Shown: piece after piece, positions 27,584 through 50,539 of the stretch
Layout: each line of letters starts with the position of its first letter
How positions within the stretch are numbered: the first letter of the stretch is position 1
Source: Cellulomonas massiliensis JC225
GTDB taxonomy: Bacteria; Actinomycetota; Actinomycetes; Actinomycetales; Cellulomonadaceae
Length of the DNA: 63,011 bases
Assembly (NCBI RefSeq): GCF_000312005.1
Contig: NZ_HE978588.1
Location: forward strand, 1,003,509 to 1,066,519
Reading direction: 5' to 3'
Position numbers and translations under genes: made by a program
The notes under the pieces: generated by a model
The model's database searches: none
Told to the model about the DNA's origin: nothing
What the model saw: the letters and a program-made list of their open reading frames with translations, nothing else

Positions 27584-27612
27584 TCAGGATGAACCGGAAG
27601 AGGAGGTGCACG

Positions 27613-27831: not shown

Positions 27832-28161
27832 CCGCTTCCCGTTTCTCCGCAACAGCCGGGGCGGCCGCATCATCGTGCCCCCGAGCCATCCTGCGACTCC
27901 GCCGATCGACTCCCTCACAGCGCTGCGGTCCTATTCAGAGTCGATCGACGGCTAAGCGCAACGAGAGCTCGGTACAGGTGTCCGGCGCGATCGGCGGCGG
28001 TCAATCCCGCGCCCCAAATCCGGAGAAGTGGTCAGATTCCGCGGTGGGGACCCCGTCGTCACCTTAGGCGCGCCGGGCGGCTCCTCGCCCGTTCGCCCCA
28101 AGCAGTGGGCTCGGGAGAGACCACCCGCGCTTCCGGGGCGAGTTCGTGCATCGCTGCGGTG
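27832..28161. other. Intergenic stretch with a spaced inverted repeat
   Basis: No gene is seen between the small protein and the convergent Abi gene. CGATCGACTC (27903-27912) and GAGTCGATCG (27938-27947) form a perfect 10-bp inverted repeat with a 25-base spacer, which might be a terminator or a remnant of a mobile end. Confidence 0.4.
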
Positions 28162-28881
28162 TCAGATGCGGGAGCGGGTCTTCAGCAGAGTGGCGACACG
28201 CTGCGTGCTTGTGAGCCAGGTACGAAGTTCGGGGTCGATCCATCCGGCGACGTCGTACGCGGCTTTAATCTGCCGTTGGGTGCGTCCCGCGTTAAGTAAG
28301 GGCTCGAGGTGCGCGACCCGGTTCCTCAACTGGTAAACGCGGTCGACCTCATCCGTCACCGCTTGCCCGCTGTAGCCGGTCGGCAAGTGCGGGAACGCAT
28401 GCGCGATCTCGGCCTTCCACAGGAGTTGGCGGCCTGCGTCCGTGTCGGGCAGCAGGAAGCGCCAAGTCCCGAACGACGTCTGCGCGAGCACGTCAGCGTG
28501 TCCTACCGTCGGATTCGGCCGCCCTGCGGCCGCAGTGGCAGCTCGGTCAGCGGCCTCGGTCACCGCCCGCTCGGCGAGTCGTGCCAGCAATGGAGCTGGG
28601 TCGAGGAGCCAGTCGCTCCCGTAGCTCCGATTGGTGTCTCGGTCGCGCTGGGTCGCGTTCCAGATGCACAGGCGCGCGTCGATCGCGTTGCGCAGGATCA
28701 CCTCGAACCTGTGGAGGATTCCGTACACGCCGGCTGACAGGTCGATGTTCCACTCGTACAGTCGCAGGGCCCGAGTTGGGTTGCCGCCCGTGCATGCGAG
28801 GTACGGCGCGAGCCTCGGTGCTGCGATCGACGCCATGCGTGCCGCGTGAGGGGCGACCCCCGCTTGAGCCGGTGTGGACAC
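28162..28881 (-). CDS. Abi_2-type abortive infection protein (HEPN fold)
   Basis: A 239-residue protein of the Abi-like (AbiD/AbiF, Abi_2) family. The N-terminal helices read LYEWNIDLSAGVYGILHRFEVILRNAI, followed by QTSFGTWRFLL and the HEPN RNase motif RNRVAH (R186, N187, H191). Such proteins stop phage spread by degrading RNA in infected cells. The GTG at 28881 has no ribosome binding site but sits six bases behind a TAGTCT box, so the message is probably leaderless. It points away from the type I operon and belongs to the same defence cluster. Confidence 0.82.
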   Translation of the reverse strand: MSTPAQAGVAPHAARMASIAAPRLAPYLACTGGNPTRALRLYEWNIDLSAGVYGILHRFEVILRNAIDARLCIWNATQRDRDTNRSYGSDWLLDPAPLLARLAERAVTEAADRAATAAAGRPNPTVGHADVLAQTSFGTWRFLLPDTDAGRQLLWKAEIAHAFPHLPTGYSGQAVTDEVDRVYQLRNRVAHLEPLLNAGRTQRQIKAAYDVAGWIDPELRTWLTSTQRVATLLKTRSRI

Positions 28882-28933
28882 GTTGGTAGACTAGATGACG
28901 AAAGCGGAGACAGGTTCTTCGTTATGCTCTTGT

Positions 28934-28970
28934 CCAGTGGTCCGCCCGGTTCAGTCCGGCGGGCCATTGG
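28934..28970. other. Strong stem-loop, possible RNA element or terminator
   Basis: CCAGTGGTCCGCCCGG (28934-28949), loop TTCAGT, CCGGCGGGCCATTGG (28956-28970). All positions pair as RNA if two G-U wobbles and one bulged C are allowed. No neighbouring gene ends here, so a plain terminator role is not obvious. Confidence 0.5.
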
Positions 28971-29429
28971 CGTTATATAGGCGGTTCGTTGCCTGACTGG
29001 CTCGCATCGATGCGTCGCGTGACGGCCTGGATTCGCCGACGGTGGGTAAGCGGTCGATCCCGCTGCCTCCATGGGCGCGGACCGGCAATGCCCGAGGCGT
29101 CGGCTTCAGATTGTCAGTGCGAGAGACCAACTCCGTCGGCGGTCACCGCTTCCACTCGACCTTCCGCTGCTGGCAGTTCGTTCTCTTCCAGCCGGCGCGA
29201 ACGCAGTTCGATGGAACCCAGTTCGGCTCGAATCGACTGCACGCGCGGATCGTTGCCGCGCGCATTCGGAGTTGCCTCGGACGAGGCGCTGCTCAGCGGC
29301 CCCGCGACGGCGCAATCCGAGCGACACCCTTACCCGCTCGGCAGACGCTTCGACGCTCCGGGACCATGCCACGTCGCGAGTTCACACTTCACGGCAGTCT
29401 CGATGTGTGGTGTGAACTGACTTCGACGC

Positions 29430-29458
29430 TTGACGGGTGCTGGGGTCTGTTCTACGAT
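29430..29458 (+). promoter_or_regulatory. Promoter of the NYN/type I operon
   Basis: TTGACG (29430-29435) and TACGAT (29453-29458) are separated by exactly 17 bases, the best sigma-70-like promoter in the island. It lies about 48 bases before the NYN start codon. Confidence 0.7.
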
Positions 29459-29506
29459 CGCCTCAAGGGGTCGGAGTCGCCGACTCAAGAACGCGGAGGA
29501 CTACCA

Positions 29507-30043
29507 ATGAACCGGCAGCACATCCCGCATGGGACTGCCCAGGCCCGTGCACTGTGCACCGGCCGGACTCTGTACCTGATCGACATCGAGAACATGGCAG
29601 GCTGCAGCAGCCTGGCGACTGCCGAGGTGGCCACCATCCAGGCGCGCATGCGGGCGATGGGCATGCTGGCGACCGGTGACCCGGTTGCCGTGGCGAGCAG
29701 CCATCACAACGCTCTCGCAGCACATTTCGGTTGGACAGGCTCGGCTCAGCGCCTGGTCCGTAGCGGGCCGAGCGGCGCCGACCAGGAACTGCTGAGTGTC
29801 ATCGCCGACGTTCGCTGGATCTCGGCCCGCTACTCGCGTGTCGTGCTCGCATCTGGGGACGGCATCTTCGCCAATGCGATCGCTGAGCTGAAGCGGGCGG
29901 GTTGCCGGGTGACGGTCGTCCCTCCAGATCAGGGGCTCTCGAAGCGGCTGCGCCTGGCTGCCGGCCAGGACGTCACGCCGATGCCCGCCACTGCGCCGAG
30001 CAACGTAATCTCGCTCTTCCCTATCCACAAGGACGTGATGTGA
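29507..30043 (+). CDS. NYN-domain (PIN-like) putative RNase
   Basis: A 178-residue protein with the NYN/PIN-like fold: YLIDIENMAG at the first catalytic strand (D and E/N ligands), LLSVIADVRW in the middle, and VVLASGDGIFANAIAELKRAGCRVTVV as the SGDGDF-like strand. NYN proteins are metal-dependent RNases. The ATG at 29507 follows GGAGGA; the stop overlaps the GTG of the methyltransferase gene, so they are co-translated. As first gene of a restriction operon it may be an effector triggered when modification or restriction fails; that role is inference. Confidence 0.8.
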   Translation: MNRQHIPHGTAQARALCTGRTLYLIDIENMAGCSSLATAEVATIQARMRAMGMLATGDPVAVASSHHNALAAHFGWTGSAQRLVRSGPSGADQELLSVIADVRWISARYSRVVLASGDGIFANAIAELKRAGCRVTVVPPDQGLSKRLRLAAGQDVTPMPATAPSNVISLFPIHKDVM

Positions 30044-32154
30044 ACGCCCGGGCGCACGAAGCAATCCTCATCACCAAGAGCGACATCGCTGAGCTCGCTG
30101 GGGTCGGGCGCTCCACCGTGAGCAACTGGACGAGCCGACACAAGGACGATTTCCCGGCACCCGTCGCCGGCACCGCGACGAGTCCCCGCTACGACGAGGC
30201 GGCAGTTGTCGCCTGGCTGAACGCGCGCGGGCGGACGGTTGACACGTTTCAGATCGACCGGGCACTTTGGAGTTCCCTTGATGCTTGGCGCGGCTTCGGA
30301 CGCCCCGAGGCAGTATCGGCGCTAGCGGGCTCAATGGTTGCCTGGCGGTTCCTGAGCGACCCCGACTCGCCCGGCTTTGACCCCGGCGTCGCCCCTGGGG
30401 CGCGATGGCACGCCGTCGCAGAGGAGCAGGACGCGTCGCTCGGGCCCCGACTTCGAGCGGCGATGGAGAGCTACGACGAACGTCAGCCGACCGAGTACAG
30501 GCTGTTCGGCTCAGTGACCTCGGGCCTGTACACCACACTCTTCGACGAGCTCGAACGACGACCCGATGCACTGCGTGCCTTCGTCGTGGCGCTGAGTTCG
30601 ATCGACGCCAACAGCCTCGCTCGGGCGTACGAGGCGTTCCAGGACCGACTCACCACGTCCGTGCTTCGCGGATATGACGACAACGCGACGAGCGAGACGC
30701 TCGTGGATCTGATCGCGTCGGCAGCGGCCTCCGTGAGTGGGCCGGCACATGACCCGTGCGTCGGCTCGGGGCGCCTCCTGCTCGCCGTCGCCGAGCGCGG
30801 AGAGGAGCGTCAGCCGCTGAGCGGACAGGAGTTCGCCACGTCGGTCTGCATGCATGCCCGGCAACGCGCGTTGCTCACGGGCTATAGCGTGACTGTTCGA
30901 AACGAGGACGCCTTCGAATCCTCGAGCTCGGCCGACGCTGCGGTCGTCGTCCTCGATCCGCCTTTCGGACTGCGTTCGCACGACCCCCAGCGCCTCGCTC
31001 TCGATGCCCGTCTTCGGTTCGGCATGCCTCCCGCCTCGAACCTCGACACCGGGTGGCTTCAGCTGGCCATCTGGCATCTGCGGGAAGGGGGGCGTGCGTT
31101 CGTGCTGCAGCCCACGGGCAGCGCGTACCGCGGCGGCCGGGAGGCGGAGATCCGAGCCGAGATGGTTCGCGCCCGCGCGGTCGAAGCTGTCGTCGCGCTC
31201 CCTGGAGGGCTCGCCGCCCGCACCAACATCCCGTTGAACCTCTGGGTCCTGGCGCGCCCAGGCGAGGCCGCCCACCCCTCGCGCGTGCTGCTGATGGACC
31301 ACAGCACAGATGCGAGCCTCGACATTCCGGCGATCGCCGCCGCGCTCAAGGATTGGCGCGAGCGCCGGATCAAGCCGGCCGGCGCGCGCGCCGTCGCTGT
31401 GTCGTTCGACGAACTCGCGACGGAGCAGTTCAACCTCGGCCCACAGAGGTGGCTAGCCGTCGCCCAGCCCGCGCCGACCGTCGACAAGATCCGTCAGCAT
31501 CTCGAGAGCCTGAAGTCGAGCCTCGCCCGGCTCGAAGAGCTGCCAGTACCGCCCGCAGCAGACCTCGATGCGCCACCCGCACCACCGCGTATGGCGACTA
31601 TCAAGGACCTCGGGCAGTTGGGGGTCGTCACCGTGATACGTCCACCGGCACGGCCGATCCGAGACCTGCTGAGTGCGAGCGGCACCCTCGTCGCGACATC
31701 CCGCTGGATCCGTGACGGGGCAGACTCCGTGCGCATCGACACTGACCGCCTGAAGGGAACGCCCAGGATCACCGAGCCCGGTGATGTCGTGGTTGAGCTC
31801 GCCCATCGCATCGCCGCACGAGTCGACACCGAGGGCGGCCGCGTCGTGGCAGCCCCTCACACGTGCTTACTGCGGATCATGTCGGCAGACCTCGACCCGC
31901 ACTACGTCGCGGCGATGCTGACCAGTCGCGCGAACGACTCAACTATCGCGGGCGCTACGGTCCAACGCGCTAGCGTGCTCGGATTCAGGGTTCCCGTTGT
32001 ACCGATCGCGCAGCAGCGGCAGATCGTCGAGACGCTGGCCGCGCTCGACGAAGTCACCAATGTGACAGAGGACGTTCTCGACGCGGCTCGTTCAAGCCGC
32101 TGGGCGCTGGTCGAAGGCGTCTCAGCCGGCACCGCGGCCCCGGCGGAGGCGTGA
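30040..32154 (+). CDS. HTH - N6-adenine methyltransferase - specificity domain fusion
   Basis: A 704-residue single-chain protein. Residues 10-65 form a helix-turn-helix with a wing (TKSDIAELAGVGRSTVSNW). A helical part like the HsdM N-terminus follows, then the methyltransferase core with motif I DPCVGSGRLLLA (D238) and motif IV as DPPF (D306) in place of NPPF. From about residue 520 it resembles the HsdS half-unit, ending PIAQQRQIVETLAALDEVT. The layout suggests self-contained DNA methylation with its own target recognition, plus DNA binding for autoregulation. It overlaps the NYN gene and precedes a complete type I system by 73 bases. Confidence 0.8.
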   Translation: MNARAHEAILITKSDIAELAGVGRSTVSNWTSRHKDDFPAPVAGTATSPRYDEAAVVAWLNARGRTVDTFQIDRALWSSLDAWRGFGRPEAVSALAGSMVAWRFLSDPDSPGFDPGVAPGARWHAVAEEQDASLGPRLRAAMESYDERQPTEYRLFGSVTSGLYTTLFDELERRPDALRAFVVALSSIDANSLARAYEAFQDRLTTSVLRGYDDNATSETLVDLIASAAASVSGPAHDPCVGSGRLLLAVAERGEERQPLSGQEFATSVCMHARQRALLTGYSVTVRNEDAFESSSSADAAVVVLDPPFGLRSHDPQRLALDARLRFGMPPASNLDTGWLQLAIWHLREGGRAFVLQPTGSAYRGGREAEIRAEMVRARAVEAVVALPGGLAARTNIPLNLWVLARPGEAAHPSRVLLMDHSTDASLDIPAIAAALKDWRERRIKPAGARAVAVSFDELATEQFNLGPQRWLAVAQPAPTVDKIRQHLESLKSSLARLEELPVPPAADLDAPPAPPRMATIKDLGQLGVVTVIRPPARPIRDLLSASGTLVATSRWIRDGADSVRIDTDRLKGTPRITEPGDVVVELAHRIAARVDTEGGRVVAAPHTCLLRIMSADLDPHYVAAMLTSRANDSTIAGATVQRASVLGFRVPVVPIAQQRQIVETLAALDEVTNVTEDVLDAARSSRWALVEGVSAGTAAPAEA

Positions 32155-32227
32155 TGCGCCCAACGGCACCCGCCGACCATCCCGACCAACCCCTCAACGC
32201 ACCAGCTTCGAAGACGACAGGACGACC

Positions 32228-33733
32228 ATGACCGACCGCGTCACCCAGCCTGAACTCGAGCAGTACCTCGCACGTGCGGCCGACCTCCTGCGCGGCAGCA
32301 TCGACCAGGCCGACTTCAAGGCGTACATCTTCCCGCTGATGTTCTTCAAGCGGATCAGCGACGTCTACGTCGAGGAGTTCGAGGCCGCTCTCGAGGAGTC
32401 CGGGGGCGACCACGAGTACGCCGCCTTCGCCGAGAACCACCGCTTCACGATCCCGGACGGCCACCTGTGGTCCGACGTGCGAGAGCGCACTGAGAACATC
32501 GGCACCGCGCTTCTGACGGCGTTCCGCGAGATCGAGAAGGCCAACCCCGAGACGCTGTTCGGCATCTTCGGTAACGCCAACTGGACGAACAAGCACAAGC
32601 TCCCTGACCGCAAACTCGCCGACCTGATCGAGCACTTCTCGACCAGGACCTTGTCGAACGCAACCGTTCCTCCAGACGTGTTCGGAAACGCGTATGAGTA
32701 CCTCATCAAGCGATTCGCGGACCAGTCGAACAAGAAGGCGGGCGAGTACTACACGCCGCGCTCAGTGGTCGGTCTGCTCGTGAACATCCTCGACCCGCAG
32801 GAGGGCGAGAGTGTCTACGATCCCGCCTGCGGAACCGGCGGCATGCTGATCGAGGTCATCGAGCACGTCAAGGAGCACGGCGGCCACGTCAACACGCTGT
32901 GGGGCAAGCTCTATGGCCAGGAGAAGGTGCTCGCCACCTCCGCGATCGCGCGTATGAACCTGCTGCTGCACGGCGTCGAGGACTTCAGGGTCGTCCGCGA
33001 GGACACCCTGAGGAACCCTGCCTTCTACTCCGGCAACCGCCTCGCCCAGTTCGACTGTGTGGTCGCCAACCCGCCCTTCTCTCTGAAGAACTGGGGCGAG
33101 GACGAGTGGGCCTCGGACAAATGGGGCCGCAACACGCTCGGCGGGGTGCCACCGAAGGGGTACGCCGACTGGGCCTGGGTCCAGCACATGCTTACCTCAG
33201 CGCGCTCGACGACGGGCCGGGTTGCTGTCGTCCTGCCGCAGGGCGCGCTCTTCCGGCAGGGGGCCGAGGCGCGTATCCGCTCCCACGTCCTCAGGCACGA
33301 CATGGTCGACGCCGTGATCGGCCTCGCCCCGAACCTGTTCTACGGCACAGGGCTTGCGGCGTGCGTGCTGGTCCTGCGCCACACCAAGCCCGCCGAGCGG
33401 CGCGGCAAGGTCCTGTTCATCAATGGCGAGTCCCTGTTCAAGCGCGGGCGCAACCAGAACACTCTCGAGCCCAAGCACGCCGAGCGGCTCTTCGAGCTCT
33501 ACCAGGGGTTCGACGAGGTCGACGGCCTCGCCCACGTCGTCAACCTCGCCGAGATCACCGGCAACAACGACAACCTCAACATCCCGCTCTACGTCGCCCC
33601 CGCTGACGACGGCGAGAAGGTCACGCTCGCCGATGCGCTCGCCAACCTCGAAGCCGCGCACGCCCGCGCCGCCGAGACCCGCGCAGCGCTGGAGCAGGAA
33701 CTTGCGAACTGGGGATTGGAGGCCAGCGCATGA
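32228..33733 (+). CDS. hsdM: Type I restriction-modification methyltransferase subunit, first copy
   Basis: A 501-residue HsdM. The N-terminal helical domain (ELEQYLARAADLLRGSIDQADFKAYIFPLMFFKRISDVY) precedes the N6-adenine methyltransferase core with YYTPRSVVGLLVNIL, motif I DPACGTGGM (D198) and motif IV NPPF (N281). All key residues are present. It methylates adenine in the target chosen by HsdS. It overlaps the start of a second, clearly different HsdM gene by four bases, so the operon makes both. The ATG follows AGGA. Confidence 0.92.
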   Translation: MTDRVTQPELEQYLARAADLLRGSIDQADFKAYIFPLMFFKRISDVYVEEFEAALEESGGDHEYAAFAENHRFTIPDGHLWSDVRERTENIGTALLTAFREIEKANPETLFGIFGNANWTNKHKLPDRKLADLIEHFSTRTLSNATVPPDVFGNAYEYLIKRFADQSNKKAGEYYTPRSVVGLLVNILDPQEGESVYDPACGTGGMLIEVIEHVKEHGGHVNTLWGKLYGQEKVLATSAIARMNLLLHGVEDFRVVREDTLRNPAFYSGNRLAQFDCVVANPPFSLKNWGEDEWASDKWGRNTLGGVPPKGYADWAWVQHMLTSARSTTGRVAVVLPQGALFRQGAEARIRSHVLRHDMVDAVIGLAPNLFYGTGLAACVLVLRHTKPAERRGKVLFINGESLFKRGRNQNTLEPKHAERLFELYQGFDEVDGLAHVVNLAEITGNNDNLNIPLYVAPADDGEKVTLADALANLEAAHARAAETRAALEQELANWGLEASA

Positions 33734-35223
33734 GCACGCGCATTACCCAGCGCGAGCTGGAGTCCTACCTGTGGGGCGCGGCGATCGTGCTCCGCGGCCT
33801 CATCGACGCCGGCGACTACAAGCAGTACATCTTCCCGCTCGTGTTCCTCAAGCGGATCTCCGACGTGTATGACGAAGAGCACGCCACGGCGATGGAGATC
33901 TACGGCGAGAAAGCACTCGCCGACCTTCCGGAGAACCACCGCTTCGCCATCCCCGCGGGCTGCCACTGGGACGACATCCGCTCGACGACGGAGAACATCG
34001 GCGCCACGATCGTCAAAGCCATGCGCGCCATCGAGTCCGCCAACCCCGACACGCTCCCCGGTGTGTTCGGCGACGGCGACTGGGGCAACAAGAACCTCCT
34101 GCCAGACTCGACACTCGCCGACCTCATCGAGCACTTCTCCACCAAGACGCTGTCCATCGCGAACCTGCCCGAAGACGAGCTCGGCAACGGCTACGAGTAC
34201 CTGATCAAGAAGTTCGCCGACGACTCCGGGCACACCGCCCAGGAGTTCTACACCAACCGCACGCTCGTGCACCTGATGACGCTGATGCTCGAGCCCCAGC
34301 CCGGCGAGTCGGTCTACGACCCCACCTGCGGCACCGGCGGCATGATCATCTCCGCCGTCGCCGAGCTCAAGCGACAGGGCAAGGAGTGGCGCAACCTGCG
34401 CCTCTACGGCCAAGAACTCAACTACGGAACCTCCGCCATCGCCCGCATGAACCTGTTCTTGCACGGCATCACCGACGGCCACATCGCCCACGGCGACACC
34501 CTCGCCCGGCCGGCCTTCCTCAACGCCAAAGGCGGCCTGGAAACCTTCGACGTCGTGCTCGCCAACCCGCCCTACTCCATCAAAGCCTGGAACCGCAACA
34601 CCTTCGCCAAGGACCCCTACGGCCGCAACATGTGGGGCGTCCCGCCCCAGGGCCGCGCCGACTACGCCTTCTTCCAGCACATCGCCAAGAGCCTCAACCC
34701 CAAGACCGGACGAGCAGCAATCCTCTTCCCCCACGGCGTCCTGTTCCGGCGCGAGGAAGCAGCGCTGCGCGAGGCACTCGTCAAGTCCGACCTCATCGAG
34801 TGCGTCCTCGGACTTGGCGCCGGCCTGTTCTACAACAGCCCGATGGAGGCTGTCGTCGTCACCCTGCGCGCCAACAAGCCCCCGGACCGCGAGGGGAAGG
34901 TCCTGTTCATCAACGCGGTCAACGAGGTAGCCCGCCAGTCCGCGCAGTCATTCCTCCGGGAGACTCACCAGCAGAAGATCCTCGACGCCTACCGCGCGTT
35001 CGACGACGTCGACCAGTTCGCCGCCGTCGCGACCCTTGACGAGATCGCCGCGAGATCGCACAGCCTCGCGATTCCTCTCTACGTCGCGGGAGCCAAAGCC
35101 TCAGGCGCCGGGGAACAGATCGACGTCGCCGATGCCGTCGGCGAATGGCGAGCCGCAGCAGACACGTCCGACGCCGCCATCGCCGACGTCCTCGAGCTTC
35201 TCCGATCGGAGGTCAGGGCATGA
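33730..35223 (+). CDS. hsdM: Type I restriction-modification methyltransferase subunit, second copy
   Basis: A 497-residue HsdM, collinear with the first over its full length but well diverged; shared blocks include YIFPLVFLKRISDVYDEEH, LADLIEHFSTKTLS and GNGYEYLIKKFADDS. Motif I DPTCGTGGM (D197) and motif IV NPPY (N279) are intact, so it too should be active. A standard type I operon has one hsdM. The two may form a heterodimer on HsdS, or one may be a recent insertion. It overlaps both neighbours by four bases. Confidence 0.92.
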   Translation: MSTRITQRELESYLWGAAIVLRGLIDAGDYKQYIFPLVFLKRISDVYDEEHATAMEIYGEKALADLPENHRFAIPAGCHWDDIRSTTENIGATIVKAMRAIESANPDTLPGVFGDGDWGNKNLLPDSTLADLIEHFSTKTLSIANLPEDELGNGYEYLIKKFADDSGHTAQEFYTNRTLVHLMTLMLEPQPGESVYDPTCGTGGMIISAVAELKRQGKEWRNLRLYGQELNYGTSAIARMNLFLHGITDGHIAHGDTLARPAFLNAKGGLETFDVVLANPPYSIKAWNRNTFAKDPYGRNMWGVPPQGRADYAFFQHIAKSLNPKTGRAAILFPHGVLFRREEAALREALVKSDLIECVLGLGAGLFYNSPMEAVVVTLRANKPPDREGKVLFINAVNEVARQSAQSFLRETHQQKILDAYRAFDDVDQFAAVATLDEIAARSHSLAIPLYVAGAKASGAGEQIDVADAVGEWRAAADTSDAAIADVLELLRSEVRA

Positions 35224-36359
35224 CCCTGAACCTCGACAAGTCCACGTGGAAACGCGTCGCGTTCGGTGACGTCGTGCGCAATGTCAACGAGACCGTCCGC
35301 TACCTCGAATCCACAGGACTCGACCGGATCATCGCGATGGACCACATGGACCCAGGCGAACTGAAGATCAGTCGCTGGGGCACAGCCGAAGACGGCACAA
35401 CATTCACGCGGCGCGTGAAGCCCGGCCAGACCTTGTTCGGCAAGCGCCGCGCCTACCAACGCAAGGTCGCCTACGCGGAGTTCGACGCCATCTGCTCTGG
35501 AGACATCTACACCTTCGAGGCCGACGAGACTCAGATGCTCGGGGAGTTCCTCCCGTTCCTCGTCCAGTCGAACGAGTTCTTCGACCATGCCCTCGGAACC
35601 TCGGCTGGCTCGCTGTCACCACGCACCAACTGGCGTGACCTCGCCAACTTCGAGTTCGATCTTCCACCGCTTGACGAGCAGAAGCGCATCGCCGAGCTCC
35701 TCTGGGCCGTCGAGCTGCACCGGCTGGCCGTCCTCGGCCTTTCGGCGTCGCTGCAGAGCGCGCTCGACGCCCGTCTCGGTGAACTGTGGGATGCCGATGG
35801 GGGCAAACTGGCGATCGGCGAGATTGCCGACTGCGTCACAGGCACCACGCCTTCGAAGTCCAACGCGTCCTATTGGGACAACGCTGAAGTGCCGTTCTAC
35901 ACACCGTCGGAGATTGATGGGGAAACGATCCGCATCGCGCGACAGCGAGTAAGCGAGGCGGGGGCCAAGTGCGGCAGGCGTCTTGCGCCTTTCTCCGTAG
36001 CTGTTGCATGCATCGGCGGCGACATGGGCAAGTCCGCAGTCATCCAAGAACCTGGGATTTCTAACCAGCAGATCACCTCGATCATTGGGCTCGGAGAAGA
36101 CGACGCGTACTTGGTGCAGTCGCTCCTTGCGCATCCTCGGGGTCGGCAAGCCATGGAGGCGCGCGAGACGACCACGATCGTGAGGAAGCTCAACAAGAGT
36201 GACCTCATGAAGGTAGAGGTGCCCTGGCCTGACGATCGTTTGGCCCTGCGCCAGCTGGTCGCAAAGAGGCGAGCGGGATTGGCCGGGGCGGACGCGGAGC
36301 GCGACGCTCTCCGCCTCCTCACCTCAGCACTCGAGTCAGCTGTCTTCGGAGGCGAGTGA
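35220..36359 (+). CDS. hsdS: Type I restriction-modification specificity subunit
   Basis: A 379-residue HsdS with two target-recognition domains. The first half (residues 1-150) ends at the conserved PPLDEQKRIAELLWAVE helix; the second starts GKLAIGEIADCVTGTTPSKSNASYW and covers about residues 195-345. The two halves recognise the two parts of a split DNA target. The second half has lower GC and less biased codons than the rest of the operon, a common sign of domain shuffling. It overlaps HsdM2 and touches HsdR (TGATG). Confidence 0.9.
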   Translation: MTLNLDKSTWKRVAFGDVVRNVNETVRYLESTGLDRIIAMDHMDPGELKISRWGTAEDGTTFTRRVKPGQTLFGKRRAYQRKVAYAEFDAICSGDIYTFEADETQMLGEFLPFLVQSNEFFDHALGTSAGSLSPRTNWRDLANFEFDLPPLDEQKRIAELLWAVELHRLAVLGLSASLQSALDARLGELWDADGGKLAIGEIADCVTGTTPSKSNASYWDNAEVPFYTPSEIDGETIRIARQRVSEAGAKCGRRLAPFSVAVACIGGDMGKSAVIQEPGISNQQITSIIGLGEDDAYLVQSLLAHPRGRQAMEARETTTIVRKLNKSDLMKVEVPWPDDRLALRQLVAKRRAGLAGADAERDALRLLTSALESAVFGGE

Positions 36360-39295
36360 TGGCCCCCCAGTTCAATGAGGCGAACACCGTCCGGGACTTC
36401 GTGCGCGATCTGGTTCAATCTGTCGATGTCCAGTTCGTGCCGGGGAACGAGCTTCCGCGACGCACGGACGAGGTGCTGCTGGAGGGCTCAACCAAGGCTG
36501 CGCTCGCGCGCCTGAACCCTGAGATTGCAGCCGACCCCGCCAAGGCGGACGAGGTCATCTACAACCTCCGGGCGATCCTGCTCTCCGCTCGTACGTCTCC
36601 GCACCCGGTGCCGGCGAACGAAGAACTCATGGCGTGGCTGACCGGCCAGAAGTCGATGCCGTTCGGCCCGAACGGTGAGCACACCACCGTCCGCCTGATC
36701 GACTTCGACCACCCCGAAGACGACTCGTCGAACCAATGGATGGTCTCCACCGAAGTCACGTTCGCCCAGGGGCGCGTGGAGAAGCGGTTCGACATTGTGC
36801 TGTGGTGCAACGGCCTCCCGCTCGTCGTCGGCGAGGCGAAGACCCCGATCCGATCGGCGTACACGTGGATCGACGGGGCCGCGCAGATTCACGACGACTA
36901 CGAGGCGTCCGTCCCCCAGTTCTTCGTCCCGAACGTCTTCTCATTTGCGACCGAAGGCAAGGACTTCCGGTACGGCACCGTTGGCATGCCCGTCGAACTG
37001 TGGGGTCCATGGCGGGAAGACCCCACCGACGAGGACGGGCCGGTCAAGATCGGCCTCGAAGCGGTCCGCGAGGCCGTCCAGGGCGTCCTCGCGCCCCGCG
37101 CCGTGCTGGAGTTCCTGCGGTTCTTCACGCTGTACGCGACCGACAAGAAGCACCGAAAGATCAAGGTCATCGCGAGGTTCCAGCAGTTCCAGGCGACCAA
37201 CCTCATCGTCGAGCGCGTGCTGCACGGGCGGATCAAGCAGGGTCTGATCTGGCACTTCCAGGGGTCGGGCAAGTCGCTGCTCATGCTGTTCACCGCGCTG
37301 AAGCTGCGGGCCATAGCCGAGCTGACGAACCCGACGATCCTGATCGTCGTCGACCGGATCGACCTGGACACCCAGATCACCGGCACCTTCAACGCCTCCG
37401 ACGTCCCGGGACTCGTGTCGACCGACTCGCGCGCCCAGCTCCAGTCGCTGCTGAGTACCGGCGCGCGGCGGATCATCATCACGACGATCCACAAGTTTGG
37501 TGAGGCTCCCGGCGTCCTGGACGACCGGCACAACATCATCGCGATGGTCGACGAGGCCCACCGCTCCCAGGAGGGTGATTACGGGCAGAAGATGCGCCAG
37601 GCGCTGCCGAACGCGTTCCTCTTCGGTCTGACCGGCACCCCGATCAACCGGCGCGACCGCAACACCTTCATGTGGTTCGGCTCCCCCGAGGACGAGGGCG
37701 GCTACCTGTCTCGGTACTCCTTCCACGACTCCATCCGAGACGGCGCAACCCTGCCGCTGCACTTCGAGCCGCGCCTGTCGGAGATCCACATCGACCAGGA
37801 GGCGATCGACACCGCGTTCGCCGAGCTCGCCGAGTCAAGCGACTTGTCTGAGCAAGACAAGACGACGCTGTCGAAGAAGGCAGCCTCGCTCGAGGTGCTC
37901 ATCAAGGCGCCGAACCGAGTCGCGCAGATCGCCGCCGACATCGCCGAGCACTTCCGCACCAAGGTCGAACCCGAGGGGTTCAAGGCGCAGGTCGTCGTCT
38001 ACGACAAGGCCTCGTGCGTTGCGTACAAGCACGAGCTCGACAAGCACCTCGGGCCCGAGGCGTCGACGATCGTCATGTCCAAGTCGCGCGGCGACTCACC
38101 GGAATGGGCGAAATGGACGCCGAACGCCGAGGAGCTGGAGCAGGTCACCGCACGGTTCAACGACCCAGCCGACCCGCTGAAGATCATCATCGTCACCGCG
38201 AAGCTGCTCACCGGCTTCGACGCCCCGATCCTGTACTGCCAGTACCTCGACAAGCCGCTCAAGGAGCACACGCTCCTGCAGGCCATTACCCGCACCAACC
38301 GGGTCTACCCGCCCCGCAAGACCCACGGCCTCATCGTCGACTACCTCGGCATCTTCGACGACGTCGCCAAGTCTCTGGCATTCGACGAGAAGTCGGTCCT
38401 CCGGGTCATCTCGAACATCGCCGAGCTCAAGGCGCAGTTCGCGCCGGCGATCACCGCCGCGCTCGCGTTCTTCCCCGGCGTCGACCGTACCGTCGGTGGC
38501 TACGAGGGTTTGATCCAGGCGCAGGCCGCGATCGCCGACGACGCCCAGAAGGACGCGTTCGGTCTCGCGTACAGCGTCGTCTCCCAGCTGTGGGAAGCGA
38601 TCAGCCCGGACCCGATGCTGGCAGAGTTTGGCCACGACTACCGCTGGCTCACCGACGTCTATGAGTCAGTCCGGCAGCCCGACATCACCGGCCGGCTGGT
38701 CTGGCACGCGCTCGGGGCCAAGACGCTCGAGCTCATCAATGAACACGTCGAGGTCGAACTTCCGCAGGCCGCCGACACCATCGTGCTCGACGCACAGACC
38801 ATCGAAGACCTGATGGCCGGAAAGAAGGACGCCACCCCGGAGGAGATCGAACGGCAGATCACCGCCCGGATCGCCCGCCACCTCAACAACCCCGTCTTCG
38901 TCGAGCTCGGACAGCGGCTCAACGCGCTGCGAGAGAAGTACGCCGACATCCAGCACTCAAGTCTCGACTTCCTCCGACAACTACTTGAGCTGGCACGGGA
39001 CACCGTGGCCGCCGAGAAGGCCATCAACGAGGTGCCTCGTGAGGAACGCGGCCGGGCCGCGCTCACCGAGCTTTTCGACGCGCTCAAGGGAGACCAGACG
39101 CCAATCATCGTGTCCAACGTCGTCGACCGGATCGACGAGGTCGTTCGCGCCGTCCGGTTCGAGGGATGGCAGTCGACGATCCGCGGCGACCAGGAGGTCC
39201 GCAAGGCACTGCGCTCGACGCTCTACGTGCAGTTCAAGATCCGCGATAACGACGTCTTCGAGAAGGCGCTCGGCTACGTGCGGGAGTACTACTAG
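36359..39295 (+). CDS. hsdR: Type I restriction endonuclease subunit
   Basis: A 978-residue HsdR. The N-terminal PD-(D/E)xK nuclease domain has D in RFDIVLWCNG and E159-A-K161 in VVGEAKTPIRS; the superfamily 2 motor follows with Walker A GSGKS (K305), DEAH (D398) and SAT-like motif LTGTP, then ITRTNRVYPPRK. It translocates and cuts unmodified DNA in complex with HsdM and HsdS. The ATG at 36359 overlaps the HsdS stop and follows CGGAGG; a GTG three bases earlier is also possible. Intact and full length. Confidence 0.92.
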   Translation: MAPQFNEANTVRDFVRDLVQSVDVQFVPGNELPRRTDEVLLEGSTKAALARLNPEIAADPAKADEVIYNLRAILLSARTSPHPVPANEELMAWLTGQKSMPFGPNGEHTTVRLIDFDHPEDDSSNQWMVSTEVTFAQGRVEKRFDIVLWCNGLPLVVGEAKTPIRSAYTWIDGAAQIHDDYEASVPQFFVPNVFSFATEGKDFRYGTVGMPVELWGPWREDPTDEDGPVKIGLEAVREAVQGVLAPRAVLEFLRFFTLYATDKKHRKIKVIARFQQFQATNLIVERVLHGRIKQGLIWHFQGSGKSLLMLFTALKLRAIAELTNPTILIVVDRIDLDTQITGTFNASDVPGLVSTDSRAQLQSLLSTGARRIIITTIHKFGEAPGVLDDRHNIIAMVDEAHRSQEGDYGQKMRQALPNAFLFGLTGTPINRRDRNTFMWFGSPEDEGGYLSRYSFHDSIRDGATLPLHFEPRLSEIHIDQEAIDTAFAELAESSDLSEQDKTTLSKKAASLEVLIKAPNRVAQIAADIAEHFRTKVEPEGFKAQVVVYDKASCVAYKHELDKHLGPEASTIVMSKSRGDSPEWAKWTPNAEELEQVTARFNDPADPLKIIIVTAKLLTGFDAPILYCQYLDKPLKEHTLLQAITRTNRVYPPRKTHGLIVDYLGIFDDVAKSLAFDEKSVLRVISNIAELKAQFAPAITAALAFFPGVDRTVGGYEGLIQAQAAIADDAQKDAFGLAYSVVSQLWEAISPDPMLAEFGHDYRWLTDVYESVRQPDITGRLVWHALGAKTLELINEHVEVELPQAADTIVLDAQTIEDLMAGKKDATPEEIERQITARIARHLNNPVFVELGQRLNALREKYADIQHSSLDFLRQLLELARDTVAAEKAINEVPREERGRAALTELFDALKGDQTPIIVSNVVDRIDEVVRAVRFEGWQSTIRGDQEVRKALRSTLYVQFKIRDNDVFEKALGYVREYY

Positions 39296-39578
39296 TGGGG
39301 CGCGAACGCTGGTACGCGCTTCGTCGAGGGCCGATCCGTCGGAGAGTGGCGGCTGAAGCCCTCAAGGCCTGCGATCTGATCGGCCGTGAGCGGTAGCGCG
39401 CCACGCCCTCGCGAGGGACCGGCCGTAGTACGTGCCAGTGAGGCGTGGCGCGCTCTGCACTTCGTGACGCTCTGACCTGCACCTTCTCAGGTTCGACGAG
39501 CCAGCGGATCTCACGTTCGCTGATCTGAGCGCACCAAATCTCATCTCCGCAGGCCCTCGGCATGCGGGCATCGGACGG
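39296..39578. other. Right edge of the island, with a large inverted repeat
   Basis: No gene is seen. GCGCGCCACGCC (39396-39407) and GGCGTGGCGCGC (39442-39453) form a perfect 12-bp inverted repeat with a 34-base loop; it may terminate the restriction operon. No direct repeat matching the left edge was found by eye. Confidence 0.45.
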
Positions 39579-40184
39579 TCACCGGACGAACCCGGCCGCG
39601 ACCTTCAGGCGCTGCACCTGGTACCTCCAGGGCGCCAGCCGCGGCGCGTCCAGCGTGAGGCCGGCGTCGGCGGCGATCCACTCGACGACCTCGTCCGTCG
39701 TCCGGTCGTCGGTCTCCACGTGCGTGGCGTAGTGCTCCTGGGCGAGGGCGGCCACGCAGCGCGGGATCTGCTGCACGGCCCAGGTCTCGCGACGCAGGCC
39801 GGTGCGCCCGAGCGTGACGCGGGTGCGGAGCCGCGCGCGCAGCGTCTCCGGTCTGGCGACGAGGGTGTAGTGGCGGACGTCCACCCCGCGGGCACGCAGA
39901 CCGCCGACGATCTCCTGGAAGTACTCGTCACGCACGATCGTCATCGGCACGAGCACCGGGCCGGCGTGGGTCGCCTCGGCCTCCTGGAGGATGTCGACGA
40001 CCGCGGAACGCCACGGGGCGAGGTCCTGGAAGTCCTCGGGGCGCACTGCGGGCGGGAGCGTCCGCCGGAGGGCGAGACCGACGGGCTCGGGGTCGGCGAC
40101 GTGCGCGTCGGCCGACCGGCGGCGGAGCTCGACGGCGGTCTGGCTCTTCCCCGCGCCGAACGCGCCGTTGATCCAGACGATCAC
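39579..40184 (-). CDS. TmrB-like P-loop protein
   Basis: A 201-residue P-loop ATPase closely patterned on Bacillus subtilis TmrB, the ATP-binding tunicamycin resistance protein: IVWINGAFGAGKSQTAVEL (Walker A), PEDFQDLAPWRSAVVDIL, VPMTIVRDEYFQEIVGGL and HYTLVARPETLRARLRTR. Related nucleoside/zeta-type kinases share the fold. It starts from a GTG. It lies just outside the defence island and 37 bases downstream of a TetR gene in the same direction, so it may be part of that regulon. Actual resistance is untested. Confidence 0.8.
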   Translation of the reverse strand: MIVWINGAFGAGKSQTAVELRRRSADAHVADPEPVGLALRRTLPPAVRPEDFQDLAPWRSAVVDILQEAEATHAGPVLVPMTIVRDEYFQEIVGGLRARGVDVRHYTLVARPETLRARLRTRVTLGRTGLRRETWAVQQIPRCVAALAQEHYATHVETDDRTTDEVVEWIAADAGLTLDAPRLAPWRYQVQRLKVAAGFVR

Positions 40185-40221
40185 CCGTCGGAGCCTAGAG
40201 CGCCTGACGTAGCACGGCCCG

Positions 40222-40815
40222 TCAGTGGCGGCCGGCGGCGCCGTGCCGCGCCCAGCCGTCGTCGAGGAGCCGGAAGCCGGCGTCGACCGTCGCGCGGGGG
40301 TCCTCGCTCCTGGTCGCGAGCAGCTGGATCTGCAGCGCGAAGCGCACGTACAGGCGGATCGCGTCGTCCGGCTCGGCGAGCCCCGCCTCCGCGGTGAGCT
40401 GGTCCACGAGCGCGTCCTCGTGGCGCAGCCACATGCGCTCGGCGTGGTCGACCAGCGACGGCGTGCGGGACATGAGCGCGAGGACCTGCCGGTAGGGCTC
40501 CGAGGAGAGCTCCGCGATCTCCGCCAGGTAGTGGTCCCGGAGCGCGGCCGAGACGCTCGTGCCCGCCCGGCGGTCCCGGACCGCGGCGACGAGGCGCTCG
40601 TGCCGCTCGGCCTCGTCCGAGAACGCGAGCGACTCCTTCTGCGGGAAGTACGCGAACACGGTCGTCGGGGAGACGTCCGCCCGGTCCGCCACCTCGCGCA
40701 CGCTCACGGCGTCGAAGCCGCGCTCGAGGAACAGCTCCAGGGCGGCGTCGCGGATCGACTCCCGCGTCGCCGCCTTCTTGCGCTCCCGTCGGCCTGCGCG
40801 GGGTGCCTCGCTCAC
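40222..40815 (-). CDS. TetR family transcriptional regulator
   Basis: A 197-residue repressor (from the GTG at 40815). The N-terminal HTH reads RESIRDAALELFLERGFDAVSVREVADRADVSPTTVFAYFPQKE; the C-terminal ligand domain is of the actinobacterial type with SRTPSLVDHAERMWLRHEDAL. A longer form from ATG 40827 is possible, but that ATG lies inside the predicted -10 box TATGCT (40823-40828), so the GTG seven bases on is the better start and the message is leaderless. It is divergent from a DUF998 gene and shares a palindromic operator with it. Confidence 0.85.
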   Translation of the reverse strand: MSEAPRAGRRERKKAATRESIRDAALELFLERGFDAVSVREVADRADVSPTTVFAYFPQKESLAFSDEAERHERLVAAVRDRRAGTSVSAALRDHYLAEIAELSSEPYRQVLALMSRTPSLVDHAERMWLRHEDALVDQLTAEAGLAEPDDAIRLYVRFALQIQLLATRSEDPRATVDAGFRLLDDGWARHGAAGRH

Positions 40816-40846
40816 GACGATCAGCATAGGACCGAACTCGAACTGA

Positions 40847-40889
40847 CACCAATACTGTATTGACTACACGTTTGAACCGGGTCCAGACT
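40847..40889. promoter_or_regulatory. Divergent promoters around a TetR operator
   Basis: CAATACTGTATTG (40850-40862) is a perfect palindrome around one central base. It overlaps the -35 of the TetR gene (TTGGTG, 40847-40852, minus; -10 TATGCT 18 bases away) and the -35 of the DUF998 gene (TTGACT, 40860-40865; weak -10 CAGACT at 40884-40889). One bound repressor would shut both. Confidence 0.7.
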
Positions 40890-40919
40890 CGGCGTTCTCC
40901 GACGGAAGAGAGGCGTCCC

Positions 40920-41660
40920 ATGACCGACATCGCCACCCAGGAGCACGCCGGCTCCCCGGGCGCTGCCCCGCCGGGCACCGGGCGCGACGGCCAGCGGCGC
41001 GCCGCCGGCGCCTGGCTCGTCGCCGGGCCGGCGATCTTCCTCGTCGCCGAGCTCGTCACGGCGGCGGCGTGGACCGACCCGCCCTACAGCTACACGTACG
41101 ACTTCATCAGCAACCTCGGCGTGCGAGGCCCGTCGACGCTCTTCGGCCAGGCCATGGAGTCGCCTCTGTACTGGCTGATGAACGCTGGCTTCTTCGCGTT
41201 CGGGATCGCGATCCTCGTCGGCGTCGCGCTGCTGCGCGGGGTCTCCGGCTGGAGGCGGTGGGCGGCGCTGCTCCCGGCCGCGCTGCTGGCCGGCGGCGGG
41301 GTGCTGCTCGGTCTGTTCCCGGGCTCCGGCGAGGCGCTCGAGAACGGCACCGGGGACCTGCACAGCACGGGCGCGTTCGCCGGCTTCCTCGGCGGCAACG
41401 CCCTGGCGATCGTCCTGGGGCGCTTCCACCGGCGGCTCGGCCTCTCGGCGGGGATGGGCCGGGCGCTCGTCGTCGTCGGCGTCGTCGGTCTCGTCTCGAC
41501 GGTCGCCTACCTCACCCTGATCATGCTGTCCGCCGGCAGGTCGACCGTCGGCGTCATCGGCCTCGTCGAGCGCGGGGCCGTGCACCCGTTCCTGATCGGC
41601 ACGCTGTGCGCCGGGGCGTCGATCCTGCGGAGGCCCACCCCGACGAGGCGGCGCGACTGA
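40920..41660 (+). CDS. DUF998 membrane protein
   Basis: A 246-residue integral membrane protein with about six helices and the DUF998 hallmarks YTYDFISNLGV after helix 1 and GSGEALENGTGDLHSTGAFAGF between helices. Function unknown; in actinobacteria it often neighbours TetR regulators, as here. The ATG at 40920 follows GAGAGG. Expression is probably controlled by the divergent TetR repressor. Confidence 0.85.
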   Translation: MTDIATQEHAGSPGAAPPGTGRDGQRRAAGAWLVAGPAIFLVAELVTAAAWTDPPYSYTYDFISNLGVRGPSTLFGQAMESPLYWLMNAGFFAFGIAILVGVALLRGVSGWRRWAALLPAALLAGGGVLLGLFPGSGEALENGTGDLHSTGAFAGFLGGNALAIVLGRFHRRLGLSAGMGRALVVVGVVGLVSTVAYLTLIMLSAGRSTVGVIGLVERGAVHPFLIGTLCAGASILRRPTPTRRRD

Positions 41661-45448: not shown

Positions 45449-45461
45449 GCACGGCGCCGTT

Positions 45462-45500: not shown

Positions 45501-45523
45501 CCGTGCCGCCAGGGCGCCCGCGC

Positions 45524-48573: not shown

Positions 48574-48577
48574 GTCC

Positions 48578-50531: not shown

Positions 50532-50539
50532 TGGCCGGC

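Follow-up and report, generated by a model that had tools for sequence, protein, structure and literature searches.

A predicted NYN RNase paired with an HTH-methyltransferase-like fusion heads a PacII-like type I restriction operon in Cellulomonas massiliensis and recurs in other loci

A 63,011-nucleotide stretch of Cellulomonas massiliensis JC225 (GCF_000312005.1, NZ_HE978588.1, positions 1,003,509-1,066,519, forward strand; hereafter the window) was found to contain a six-gene restriction operon on the + strand at 29507-39295, whose new element is its first gene pair, a predicted NYN RNase and a fusion protein (FUS). Our best, still tentative explanation is that this pair could be a mobile, autoregulated RNase and guard cassette ahead of a PacII-type m6A/m4C type I system. 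The features are as follows.

29379..29418, no strand assigned: putative operator, inverted repeat AGTTCACAC-N22-GTGTGAACT with divergent TTCACA half-sites
29430..29458, + strand: sigma-70-like promoter, TTGACG-N17-TACGAT, 9/12 consensus bases
29507..30043, + strand: NYN-domain (PIN-like, LabA-type) predicted RNase, 178 aa, ATG start, GGAGG at 29495-29499
30040..32154, + strand: FUS, HTH - N6-methyltransferase-like domain - one target-recognition domain (TRD), 704 aa, GTG start, motif IV DPPF
32228..33733, + strand: HsdM1, PacII M1-type, NPPF (Pfam and PacII chain match)
33730..35223, + strand: HsdM2, PacII M2-type, NPPY (Pfam and PacII chain match)
35220..36359, + strand: HsdS specificity subunit, 379 aa (Pfam Methylase_S, PADLOC Specificity_I)
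36356..39295, + strand: HsdR restriction/translocation subunit, 979 aa (Pfam and TIGR00348)

The sequence-only reading of this DNA had described six overlapping or nearly touching genes in one direction, and all six were recovered, in order and on a single strand; four of the five junctions are 4-bp overlaps and the remaining one, FUS-HsdM1, is a 73-bp gap. Its description of the operon as composite was likewise borne out by the gene content, the NYN-FUS pair standing ahead of hsdMMSR. The G+C content of the operon is 0.64-0.68, versus mostly 0.69-0.78 in the rest of the window. An Abi/PD-T4-5-like gene detected with PADLOC adjoins the operon. An Rfam scan of 27000-41000 gave no match to RNA families. 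The neighbouring gene at 39579-40184 was considered as a marker of an island boundary and rejected, since it occurs too patchily in the genus (10/35, counting its own genome) for an empty site to be defined.

The last four genes resemble a known enzyme. Both HsdM proteins carry Pfam N6_Mtase and HsdM_N domains, with HsdM1 matching the PacII M1 chain 7vru_A (E 3.3e-154) and HsdM2 the M2 chain 7vru_B (E 1.3e-172). PacII is an m6A/m4C type I enzyme with two M subunits that follow an M1 NPPF / M2 NPPY rule (PMC9613975). HsdM1 is thus expected, from its motif, to form m6A and HsdM2 m4C. R22 of HsdM2 aligns with PacII M2 R29, an arginine that the window's M1 also has at this position, and the pocket motifs are AGEY (M1) and AQEF (M2) in the window versus AGEF and AAEF in PacII. 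HsdS matched Methylase_S in two stretches (Pfam, E 7.6e-13) and Specificity_I (PADLOC, E 5.4e-90); HsdR carries HSDR_N, SWI2_SNF2 and T1R_D3-like domains (Pfam) and scored 481.6 bits against TIGR00348 (cut-off 284.6). The doubled HsdM had been singled out as unusual. Two HsdM genes are indeed present, but as a novelty the doubling was dropped, the PacII class being known (PMC9613975) and hsdMMSR occurring without the cassette too.

For NYN, the Pfam model PF01936 (E 1.5e-6) covers residues 102-152 only. The predicted structure (pLDDT 89) had as its best fold matches 2qip (E 2.8e-4, TM 0.49) and the MARF1 NYN domain (E 2e-3), which are modest at a TM of about 0.5, and a PDB sequence search with NYN returned no relative. 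Residues D26, E28, N29, D92 and D118 are kept in all 33 FUS-linked copies. The domain, the conserved acidic residues and the PIN-like fold of the model together place the protein among predicted NYN/LabA-like PIN-fold nucleases. With its 4-bp gene overlap and one partner whose DNA binding is presumed from its HTH, the NYN-FUS pair also has the arrangement of a type II toxin-antitoxin gene pair.

In FUS, Pfam identified the N6_Mtase domain (E 2.7e-30), while the HTH fell under the Pfam cut-offs and the TRD had no Pfam match. PADLOC placed the HTH at residues 11-64 through a mad1 match (E 1.2e-5) and covered the C-terminus with specificity models, and the secondary structure of the predicted model (pLDDT 84, pTM 0.66) is compatible with the HTH and TRD assignment. 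An iterated FUS profile scores HsdM well too, so each protein went to whichever of the two profiles scored it higher, after which the HTH was visible in an alignment of 45 FUS proteins. With an HTH at the N-terminus of a methyltransferase fold, FUS has the build of an M.SsoII-like autoregulatory methyltransferase. The best fold matches were the PacII M1 chains 7vs4_A and 7vru_A; superposition on the third, 7eew, gave an rmsd of 32 over 649 columns and hence no rigid match. Five distant, partial FUS matches were found in phages, in unannotated records.

The sequence-only reading had called FUS an extra methyltransferase, which became doubtful for the family. Motif IV is canonical in 11 of the 33 NYN-linked FUS proteins, the window copy among them, and non-canonical in 22, with E as the first residue in 18; motifs I and IV are both canonical in eight. 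In contrast, motif IV is present in 41/41 HsdM segments. The window FUS retains DPPF and a GxG motif I and may therefore be a working methyltransferase; in most of its relatives, the altered motif IV is more in keeping with a sensor than with an enzyme of modification. Over 15 pairs, divergence of the FUS TRD nearly keeps pace with that of the FUS methyltransferase domain, unlike the HsdS proteins of the same sister pairs, which are far apart. That FUS reads or methylates the site of the neighbouring HsdS was unsupported, as the own-operon HsdS was the best TRD match in only 1 of 20 operons.

The occurrence of the pair was then compared across loci (numbered with L). A single-protein query against genome contigs gave no match, and a four-sequence NYN alignment was used instead. 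FUS lay directly downstream in 21 of 61 NYN loci; the NYN scan rests on two peptide patterns, and its 59 loci are a sample and no census. Where NYN and FUS share a strand and 9 kb or more of downstream sequence was available, hsdM came next in 17/19 loci, and hsdR was also present in 16; in the two exceptions the gene that follows codes for an Mrr-type endonuclease in one and, on the far side of a called antisense ORF, for an AAA_15 ATPase in the other. NYN loci without FUS had hsdM, hsdS or hsdR downstream on the same strand in 0 of 34 cases (7 with less than 3.2 kb of flank). Distant weak methyltransferase-like matches were seen in two such loci, L112 and L115; these and the weak FUS-like match in L148 were left out.

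The full order NYN-FUS-hsdM-hsdM-hsdS-hsdR, whose NYN / HTH-MTase-TRD / two-HsdM part the earlier reading had proposed to search for, recurs in four other loci, beyond chance, and twelve more have NYN-FUS-hsdM-hsdR with one hsdM. In L107, HsdM2 is in two pieces and HsdS was detected by tblastn only. The co-occurrence of NYN and the fusion with type I systems, whose absence would have counted against that reading, was supported. It had also staked its case on close relatives not simply carrying the restriction genes bare. The objection holds only by half: five other genomes do have hsdMMSR without the cassette (HsdR 84-87% identical; one, L141, interrupted), but four other hsdMMSR operons carry it. 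In five of the 20 operons measured (L086, L107, L059, L083, L120), FUS and hsdM lie no more than about 20 bp apart. NYN-FUS without hsd genes occurs as six pairs with FUS on the opposite strand and in C. comes; FUS without NYN occurs in 13 loci (L061-L073) and stands ahead of hsd genes in two of them, L068 (hsdMSR) and L061 (hsdR). The carriers include Corynebacterium glutamicum plasmids. L111 was dropped (contig shared with L058), the FUS-like match of L061 (353 bits) stayed outside trees and motif counts, and the FUS tree omits L073, whose sequence is too short.

NYN and FUS distances were strongly correlated (Mantel rho 0.76; 0/2000 permutations as high), and the two correlations with HsdR were 0.09 and 0.08. 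Cassette-bearing hsdMMSR operons have HsdR proteins 83-85% identical to the window's but unlike FUS proteins, and a single clade for the FUS of the five hsdMMSR operons was rejected (AU p=0.004), a post hoc test whose group was chosen after the tree was seen; the NYN tree alone does not require the coupling to hsdMMSR to have arisen more than once. As far as these sequence comparisons go, the unit is the NYN-FUS pair, found also without hsd genes and recombining with them. Its repeated attachment to different restriction systems suggests that the pair is a unit conserved for control or for back-up defence.

The operon had been placed behind one good promoter. The element TTGACG-N17-TACGAT is present, but the pattern alone is within chance (2 on both strands of 13.3 kb versus 0.8 +/- 1.0 in shuffles); its standing improves through an operator motif that related operons have in common in this region. 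The inverted repeat of the window is likewise not significant alone, 3 of 20 shuffles being equally good, and the longer pattern GTTCACACNNCAC-N{0,30}-GTGTGAAC occurs at a single place in the 3.41-Mb genome. Across loci, the hexamer TTCACA/TGTGAA was found in 15 of 25 cassette promoters (29 sites versus 3.2 in shuffles) and in 0 of 35 NYN-only promoters; it is missing from the other ten cassette promoters, only two of the six divergent pairs have it, two of seven plasmid NYN genes without FUS have one hexamer, and among held-out cassettes it appeared in 2/3. The palindrome GTGAA-N5-TTCAC, with a spacing chosen after the data were seen, occurs eight times in 1.76 Mb, each time upstream of FUS or NYN-FUS, and half-site pairs at any spacing of 0-30 occur 16 times near FUS and 29 times elsewhere. 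Half-sites at FUS promoters occur at further spacings too; the window has them in another arrangement, without the N5 palindrome. Their nearness to predicted -35 boxes was seen without a shuffled control.

Comparison supports, as a prediction, autoregulation of the FUS promoter by FUS, and the HTH probably serves control of the operon's own promoter. CRP sites have the form TGTGA-N6-TCACA. A host CRP-type regulator at the operator is unlikely, since the palindromes here are TGTGA-N7-TCACA, the spacings vary, and the sites follow FUS (15/25) and not NYN (0/35). L093, almost identical to L083, was excluded from the promoter hexamer, spacing and -35 analyses and L152 (near-copy of L091) from the promoter hexamer count only; both were kept, where present, in neighbourhood counts, trees, residue alignment, Mantel tests and the palindrome scan. 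The 1.76-Mb scan did not take in the sub-loci L001-L057, L111, L133-L140 and L157-L161.

Under the guard-cassette explanation, FUS, with the build of a single-chain type I methyltransferase, would bind the TTCACA half-sites adjoining the -35 box and repress the shared promoter, a control predicted from comparison to extend to FUS itself, NYN and, by read-through, the hsd genes. FUS probably controls NYN: pairing, gene overlap and co-evolution point to an antitoxin-like partner that would hold the RNase inactive. DNA, or an anti-restriction protein that mimics DNA, would meet in FUS a likeness of the restriction enzyme's M-S core; some of the type I M subunits that resemble the FUS fold have structures solved with Ocr or ArdA, according to the titles of these entries. 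If FUS mimics this core, agents engaging the core would therefore also remove FUS from the promoter and from NYN. Occupation or titration of the core by foreign DNA or an Ocr/ArdA-type inhibitor would then free NYN to cut RNA as a back-up defence. A more far-reaching version is unlikely in our estimate: FUS, once a methyltransferase, would have become a sensor that imitates the type I M-S core as a decoy. Engaged by a phage inhibitor or by unmodified DNA, it would leave the operator and release the RNase, a single protein thus regulating the operon and arming a second defence line at the RNA level, and the same exchangeable cassette would guard many unrelated restriction systems.

We counted for the guard-cassette explanation the NYN-FUS co-evolution, hsdM as next gene in 17/19 loci, the 0/34 NYN loci without FUS that have hsd genes downstream, the operator enrichment, the acidic residues of NYN, the altered motif IV, the non-monophyletic FUS, the shared pace of TRD and methyltransferase domain, the type I M-like fold and the PrrC/EcoprrI precedent. 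Against it we counted DPPF and GxG in the window copy, the absence of the N5 palindrome there and the non-significant inverted repeat, the 10/25 hexamer-free promoters, the hexamer in only 2/6 divergent pairs and in 2/7 plasmid NYN-only loci, the post hoc N5 spacing, the 29 half-site pairs elsewhere, the 13 FUS loci without NYN, a TRD not notably closer to its own operon's HsdS, and a NYN tree that forces no multiple origins.

Several of these observations could be read otherwise. It is rather doubtful that the cassette is a controller only, with FUS, like M.SsoII, delaying or limiting hsd expression on entry to a new cell and NYN trimming the operon's mRNA, without killing or back-up. Such a role would suit the putative operator near the promoter, the close spacing of FUS and hsdM in 5/20 operons (up to about 20 bp), which fits co-transcription, and the repression by M.SsoII of its own gene through its N-terminal domain (PMC3978073); a controller would, however, have no obvious use for an RNase whose active site is conserved, and NYN-FUS exists without hsd genes in the six opposite-strand pairs and C. 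comes. Those same versions, the plasmid location, the free recombination with hsd genes and the adjoining Abi/PD-T4-5-like gene could instead mark a stand-alone toxin-antitoxin or abortive module, a mere fellow traveller of restriction systems on plasmids or islands and functionally unlinked to them. We think this distinctly unlikely, as so constant an order, with hsdM the next gene found in 17/19 testable same-strand cassettes and within about 20 bp in 5/20, is not expected from hitch-hiking.

Very improbable in our view is that FUS is an active extra methyltransferase protecting additional sites, with NYN incidental. The window copy, with DPPF and the GxG motif I, and the 8/33 copies canonical in both motifs would allow it, but motif IV is non-canonical in 22/33 linked copies (18 E-first), such sites have no evident nuclease, sister FUS proteins show no exchange of the TRD, and the HTH and putative operator indicate regulation.

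Searches of the literature on NYN with restriction, defence islands, antiphage systems, HsdM and MADS, with most subscription journals outside their scope, recognised no description of the NYN-FUS cassette, a single small unit that has been attached to many restriction systems and that combines a predicted operator with a methyltransferase-like partner often altered in its catalytic motif. If it is a guard, it would show how a restriction system can notice being blocked. The more modest reading, a portable controller, would if true bear on how type I systems control expression; these systems are not known to have the usual C-proteins. Genetics would be straightforward in the C. glutamicum plasmid carriers.

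Among known systems, the methylation-associated defence system (MADS) resembles the cassette in that the FUS HTH matches mad1 (PADLOC, E 1.2e-5) and, more generically, the methyltransferase domain and TRD match mad2 and mad5; in FUS these parts form one fused protein. The MADS gene set comprises mad1 to mad8, and membership was rejected, the seven proteins scanned with PADLOC showing only mad1-, mad2- and mad5-like similarity (HsdM mad2-like, HsdS mad5-like). The third-best fold match, 7eew, is by its title an intact type I-like methyltransferase of Vibrio vulnificus solved with Ocr, and superposes poorly at full length. METTL14, a pseudo-methyltransferase with a degenerate EPPL motif, has E in place of the first motif IV residue as do 18/33 linked FUS proteins, which mostly keep the motif IV aromatic residue that METTL14 lacks; as a subunit of RNA methylation with an active partner (PMC5023411), it offers an analogy only. 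Like FUS, M.SsoII combines a methyltransferase with a DNA-binding region at the N-terminus, and it acts at its own promoter, as is predicted for FUS; M.SsoII is an active m5C enzyme (PMC3978073), whereas FUS is type I-like, mostly non-canonical in motif IV and paired with an RNase. The PacII system has the same two distinct adjacent M genes with NPPF and NPPY, each window protein being nearest to the matching PacII chain, plus HsdS and HsdR; the window operon differs in having the NYN-FUS cassette at its head. Restriction systems with an attached RNase are known, a studied case being PrrC, which is encoded within the hsd operon of EcoprrI and follows a back-up logic (PMC3710099). The window likewise encodes a predicted RNase with a type I system, and by this analogy a fail-safe RNase, as first proposed for NYN, is a live reading. 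The make-up is not that of PrrC: among the six genes Pfam found NYN only and no ABC NTPase, and where PrrC unites a HEPN anticodon nuclease and an ABC NTPase in one protein, the window has a NYN nuclease with an HTH-methyltransferase-TRD partner.

The NYN gene, encoding a predicted LabA-type RNase, heads an operon at 29507-39295 that the sequence-only reading had described as six overlapping or nearly touching genes on one strand; all six were found, with agreement between gene calling and domain searches for each:

29507-30043, plus strand: NYN
30040-32154, plus strand: FUS, an HTH-MTase-TRD (HTH, N6-methyltransferase-like, TRD) fusion
32228-33733, plus strand: HsdM1
33730-35223, plus strand: HsdM2
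35220-36359, plus strand: HsdS
36356-39295, plus strand: HsdR

Neighbouring genes overlap by 4 bp at four junctions, while 73 bp separate FUS from HsdM1, and the G+C content of the operon is 0.64-0.68, compared with mostly 0.69-0.78 in the rest of the window (host genome size, 3.41 Mb). For the single good promoter proposed earlier, a sigma-70-like candidate ends 48 bp upstream of the NYN start codon; taken alone it is near chance level. Adjoining the operon, a minus-strand gene at 28162-28881 encodes a protein like PD-T4-5 in PADLOC (E 2e-14) with a weak Abi_2 match; an Arthrobacter plasmid (L150) has a relative, 30% identical, next to a type I system. Directly after the operon lies a small minus-strand AAA_33 gene (39579-40184), matched in 10 of the 35 genus genomes searched, its own counted, and a fructan-use cluster with GH68 levansucrase, two GH32, ABC sugar transporter and LacI regulator genes spans 43763-52967.

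At the sequence level, the NYN-FUS pair, hereafter the cassette, is conserved. When FUS was searched for in overlapping sets of 58, 396 and 396 genomes, the matches listed included at least three loci beyond the window with NYN directly upstream of FUS (L058-L060). A contig scan with a four-sequence NYN alignment returned 59 loci; with one duplicate removed and these three added, 61 were classed, of which 21 have FUS directly downstream, 6 have it on the opposite strand less than 3 kb away (one gene intervening at L099), and 34 lack it. Two of the 21 run out within 2.5 kb; among the 19 with flank, hsdM and hsdR follow in 16, and the cassette is followed by hsdM and hsdS at L078, by an Mrr-type endonuclease gene at L095, and by an AAA_15 ATPase gene, past a called antisense ORF, at L114. 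Downstream of the 34 FUS-less NYN genes, no same-strand hsdM, hsdS or hsdR match was found (less than 3.2 kb being viewable in seven), and L112 and L115 have weak methyltransferase-like matches farther downstream. Among 17 plasmid records carrying this NYN, FUS is adjacent in nine (H1, H2, H3, H6, H7, H9, H13, H14 and H17; H3 assigned by coordinates alone) and not in eight (H5 counted unopened). Five of these nine cassettes lead into hsdM, one into insertion sequences and one into other genes, and two lie at the record start with their downstream side out of reach. The pair also occurs in two Gemmatimonadota records and one Planctomycetota record.

Several variant settings were observed. At L060 (9051-11251), a pair of overlapping genes, one for HTH-MTase and one for the TRD, takes the place of a single FUS gene, and at L061 (154-5772, on an 8-kb contig) a FUS-like gene is followed directly by hsdR, with NYN and a separate hsdM absent. 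In Microbispora, divergent FUS/NYN pairs (L108 and L125, about 7800-13650) lie near a large protein without a Pfam match and an FkbM-type methyltransferase. Streptosporangiales NYN genes without FUS (L079, L080, L085, L089, L094, L100, L104-L106, L110 and L113) mostly adjoin a conserved gene in divergent orientation, the representative of which gave no Pfam match; this is a separate, perhaps housekeeping, role. Plasmid NYN genes at L155 (7004-14471) and L164 (6465-13354) neighbour PP2C phosphatase, FHA, and penicillin-binding-like or FtsW-like genes; this is a second NYN association, with no relation to restriction.

The gene order NYN, FUS and two hsdM recurs, as a database check found, in four loci (L075, L086, L107 and L120), hosted by Arthrobacter sp. 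ok362, an Actinomycetota MAG, Microbacterium halotolerans, where the second HsdM is in two pieces, and Mycolicibacterium septicum. The M1 plus M2 composition was borne out, but it is not new: doubled HsdM is already known from non-canonical type I enzymes of the PacII-like class, in which, according to PMC9613975, M1 carries NPPF and makes m6A and M2 carries NPPY and makes m4C. Window HsdM1 has NPPF and is nearest to PacII M1 (7vru_A, E 3.3e-154), and HsdM2 has NPPY and is nearest to PacII M2 (7vru_B, E 1.3e-172), with R22 at the position of PacII M2 R29. The pocket motifs of the two are slightly different, AGEY and AQEF.

An HsdR search of 396 genomes gave seven others with a strong match. 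Five, from the window's own taxonomic order, carry hsdMMSR (two hsdM, hsdS, hsdR) without the cassette (HsdR 84-87% identical), and the remaining two, with HsdR 40-41% identical, likewise lack NYN and FUS; Streptomyces hirsutus and Exiguobacterium aurantiacum also have plasmid-borne hsdMMSR that is cassette-free. Relatives lacking the cassette, which would have counted against the composite reading, exist, but as hsdMMSR rather than plain hsdMSR, and NYN-FUS does co-occur with hsd genes elsewhere. One of the five, L141, is broken within its M genes and has no NYN or FUS in the 10.6 kb upstream of HsdM1; its hsdMMSR (1194-9625) is interrupted by about 8 kb including a second HsdR-like reading frame. 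DNA similarity between the window and the four uninterrupted operons begins at 32252-32258, where HsdM1 starts, so NYN-FUS is a segment of its own.

Comparison of protein distances shows the cassette and the hsd genes to be exchangeable modules. In Mantel tests (2000 permutations) on the 20 loci where NYN, FUS, HsdM and HsdR are all present, near-copies included, NYN correlated with FUS (rho 0.76) and HsdM with HsdR (rho 0.78), no permutation being as high in either case, and values across the two sets were low: NYN-HsdR 0.09 (287/2000), FUS-HsdR 0.08 (341/2000), NYN-HsdM 0.15 (75/2000) and FUS-HsdM 0.16 (39/2000). For the five cassette-headed hsdMMSR operons, identity to the window is 83-85% in HsdR, 38-41% in NYN and 28-33% in FUS. 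A single FUS clade for them was rejected (AU p 0.004, for a group chosen after tree inspection, with a short search and long branches); the tree of the shorter NYN does not require multiple origins. By HsdR phylogeny, L075 and the window fall among cassette-free operons with moderate support and the other three form one supported group. L059 and L103 have near-identical HsdR (tree distance about 0.07) and very different FUS.

The NYN protein looks active by prediction. D26, E28, N29, D92 and D118 are kept in all 33 FUS-linked copies, and position 58 holds D in 28 of them and E in the other 5; since FUS-less proteins retain the same residues (34 or 35 of 35), this conservation speaks for an intact site and not for a special link to FUS. 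In fold comparison, the NYN model (pLDDT 89) comes closest to 2qip, a functionally uncharacterised Vibrio protein and the only match below E 0.001, and to MARF1 NYN domains. In PADLOC, FUS scores best against PDLC03037, a type I methyltransferase model (E 6.8e-40). It has an altered motif in most relatives: read at aligned columns, the catalytic motif IV is canonical ([DNS]PP[FYW]) in 11 of 33 NYN-linked copies and 3 of 12 without NYN, its first residue being E in 18 of the 33, and GxG of motif I is retained in 23 of the 33. Both motifs occur in 41/41 HsdM segments, cassette-free operons included, under a looser test that sought the motif anywhere. A degenerate motif, EPPL, has been documented in METTL14 (PMC5023411), and we infer that EPPF inactivates FUS. 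Window FUS may be an active methyltransferase, because DPPF and GSG are present. Over 15 pairs of FUS, identity in the TRD ranges from 4 points above to 13 points below that in the MTase domain (for example 64/66, 59/61 and 64/66), while HsdS differs strongly within five sister pairs (23-41% in the best stretches), which suggests that FUS keeps a fairly stable target within a lineage; comparison of the FUS TRD with the HsdS target gave no link.

A putative shared operator is associated with cassette and FUS promoters. The 180-bp regions preceding NYN contain the hexamer TTCACA/TGTGAA in 15 of 25 cassettes (29 sites, versus a mean of 3.2 and a maximum of 10 in 100 shuffles) and lack it in the other 10; it was found in 0/35 NYN-only loci and 2/6 divergent pairs. 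Of the solitary FUS loci, 6/11 have it upstream of FUS (13 sites versus 1.4 in shuffles), and L061 has none near its start. Held-out plasmid cassettes have it in 2/3, one being an L156 relative, and plasmid NYN genes without FUS have one hexamer each in 2/7. All eight copies of GTGAA-N5-TTCAC in 1.76 Mb (107 loci plus the window) precede the start of FUS or of NYN-FUS by at most 260 bp, the N5 spacing having been picked after the data were seen and the related L086/L107 and L156/L168 leaving about six independent cases; at any spacing of 0-30, 16 half-site pairs are near FUS and 29 elsewhere. A half-site stops 2-3 bp short of the best-scoring -35 box in 6/26 promoters (L059, L083, L088, L091, L103 and L156), counted without a shuffled control. 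In the window, AGTTCACAC-N22-GTGTGAACT stops 11 bp short of the -35 box; an extended version of the pattern occurs at one place in the genome, and the repeat by itself is not significant.

Every cassette part has known relatives; single-protein libraries give generic names only for its proteins, and no description of the cassette was recognised in the literature searched on it. FUS would repress the shared promoter. In the main rival explanation, FUS would be purely an expression controller comparable to M.SsoII (PMC3978073). In the release model that we propose, FUS would also restrain NYN, and its occupation by DNA or a DNA-mimic inhibitor would set NYN free. This step is suggested because the FUS fold resembles type I M subunits, its matches including structures titled as solved with Ocr or ArdA (7eew, 7bst and 7bto, going by their titles), and because PrrC beside EcoprrI offers a precedent (PMC3710099); PacII itself is inhibited by both Ocr and ArdA, as PMC9613975 reports.
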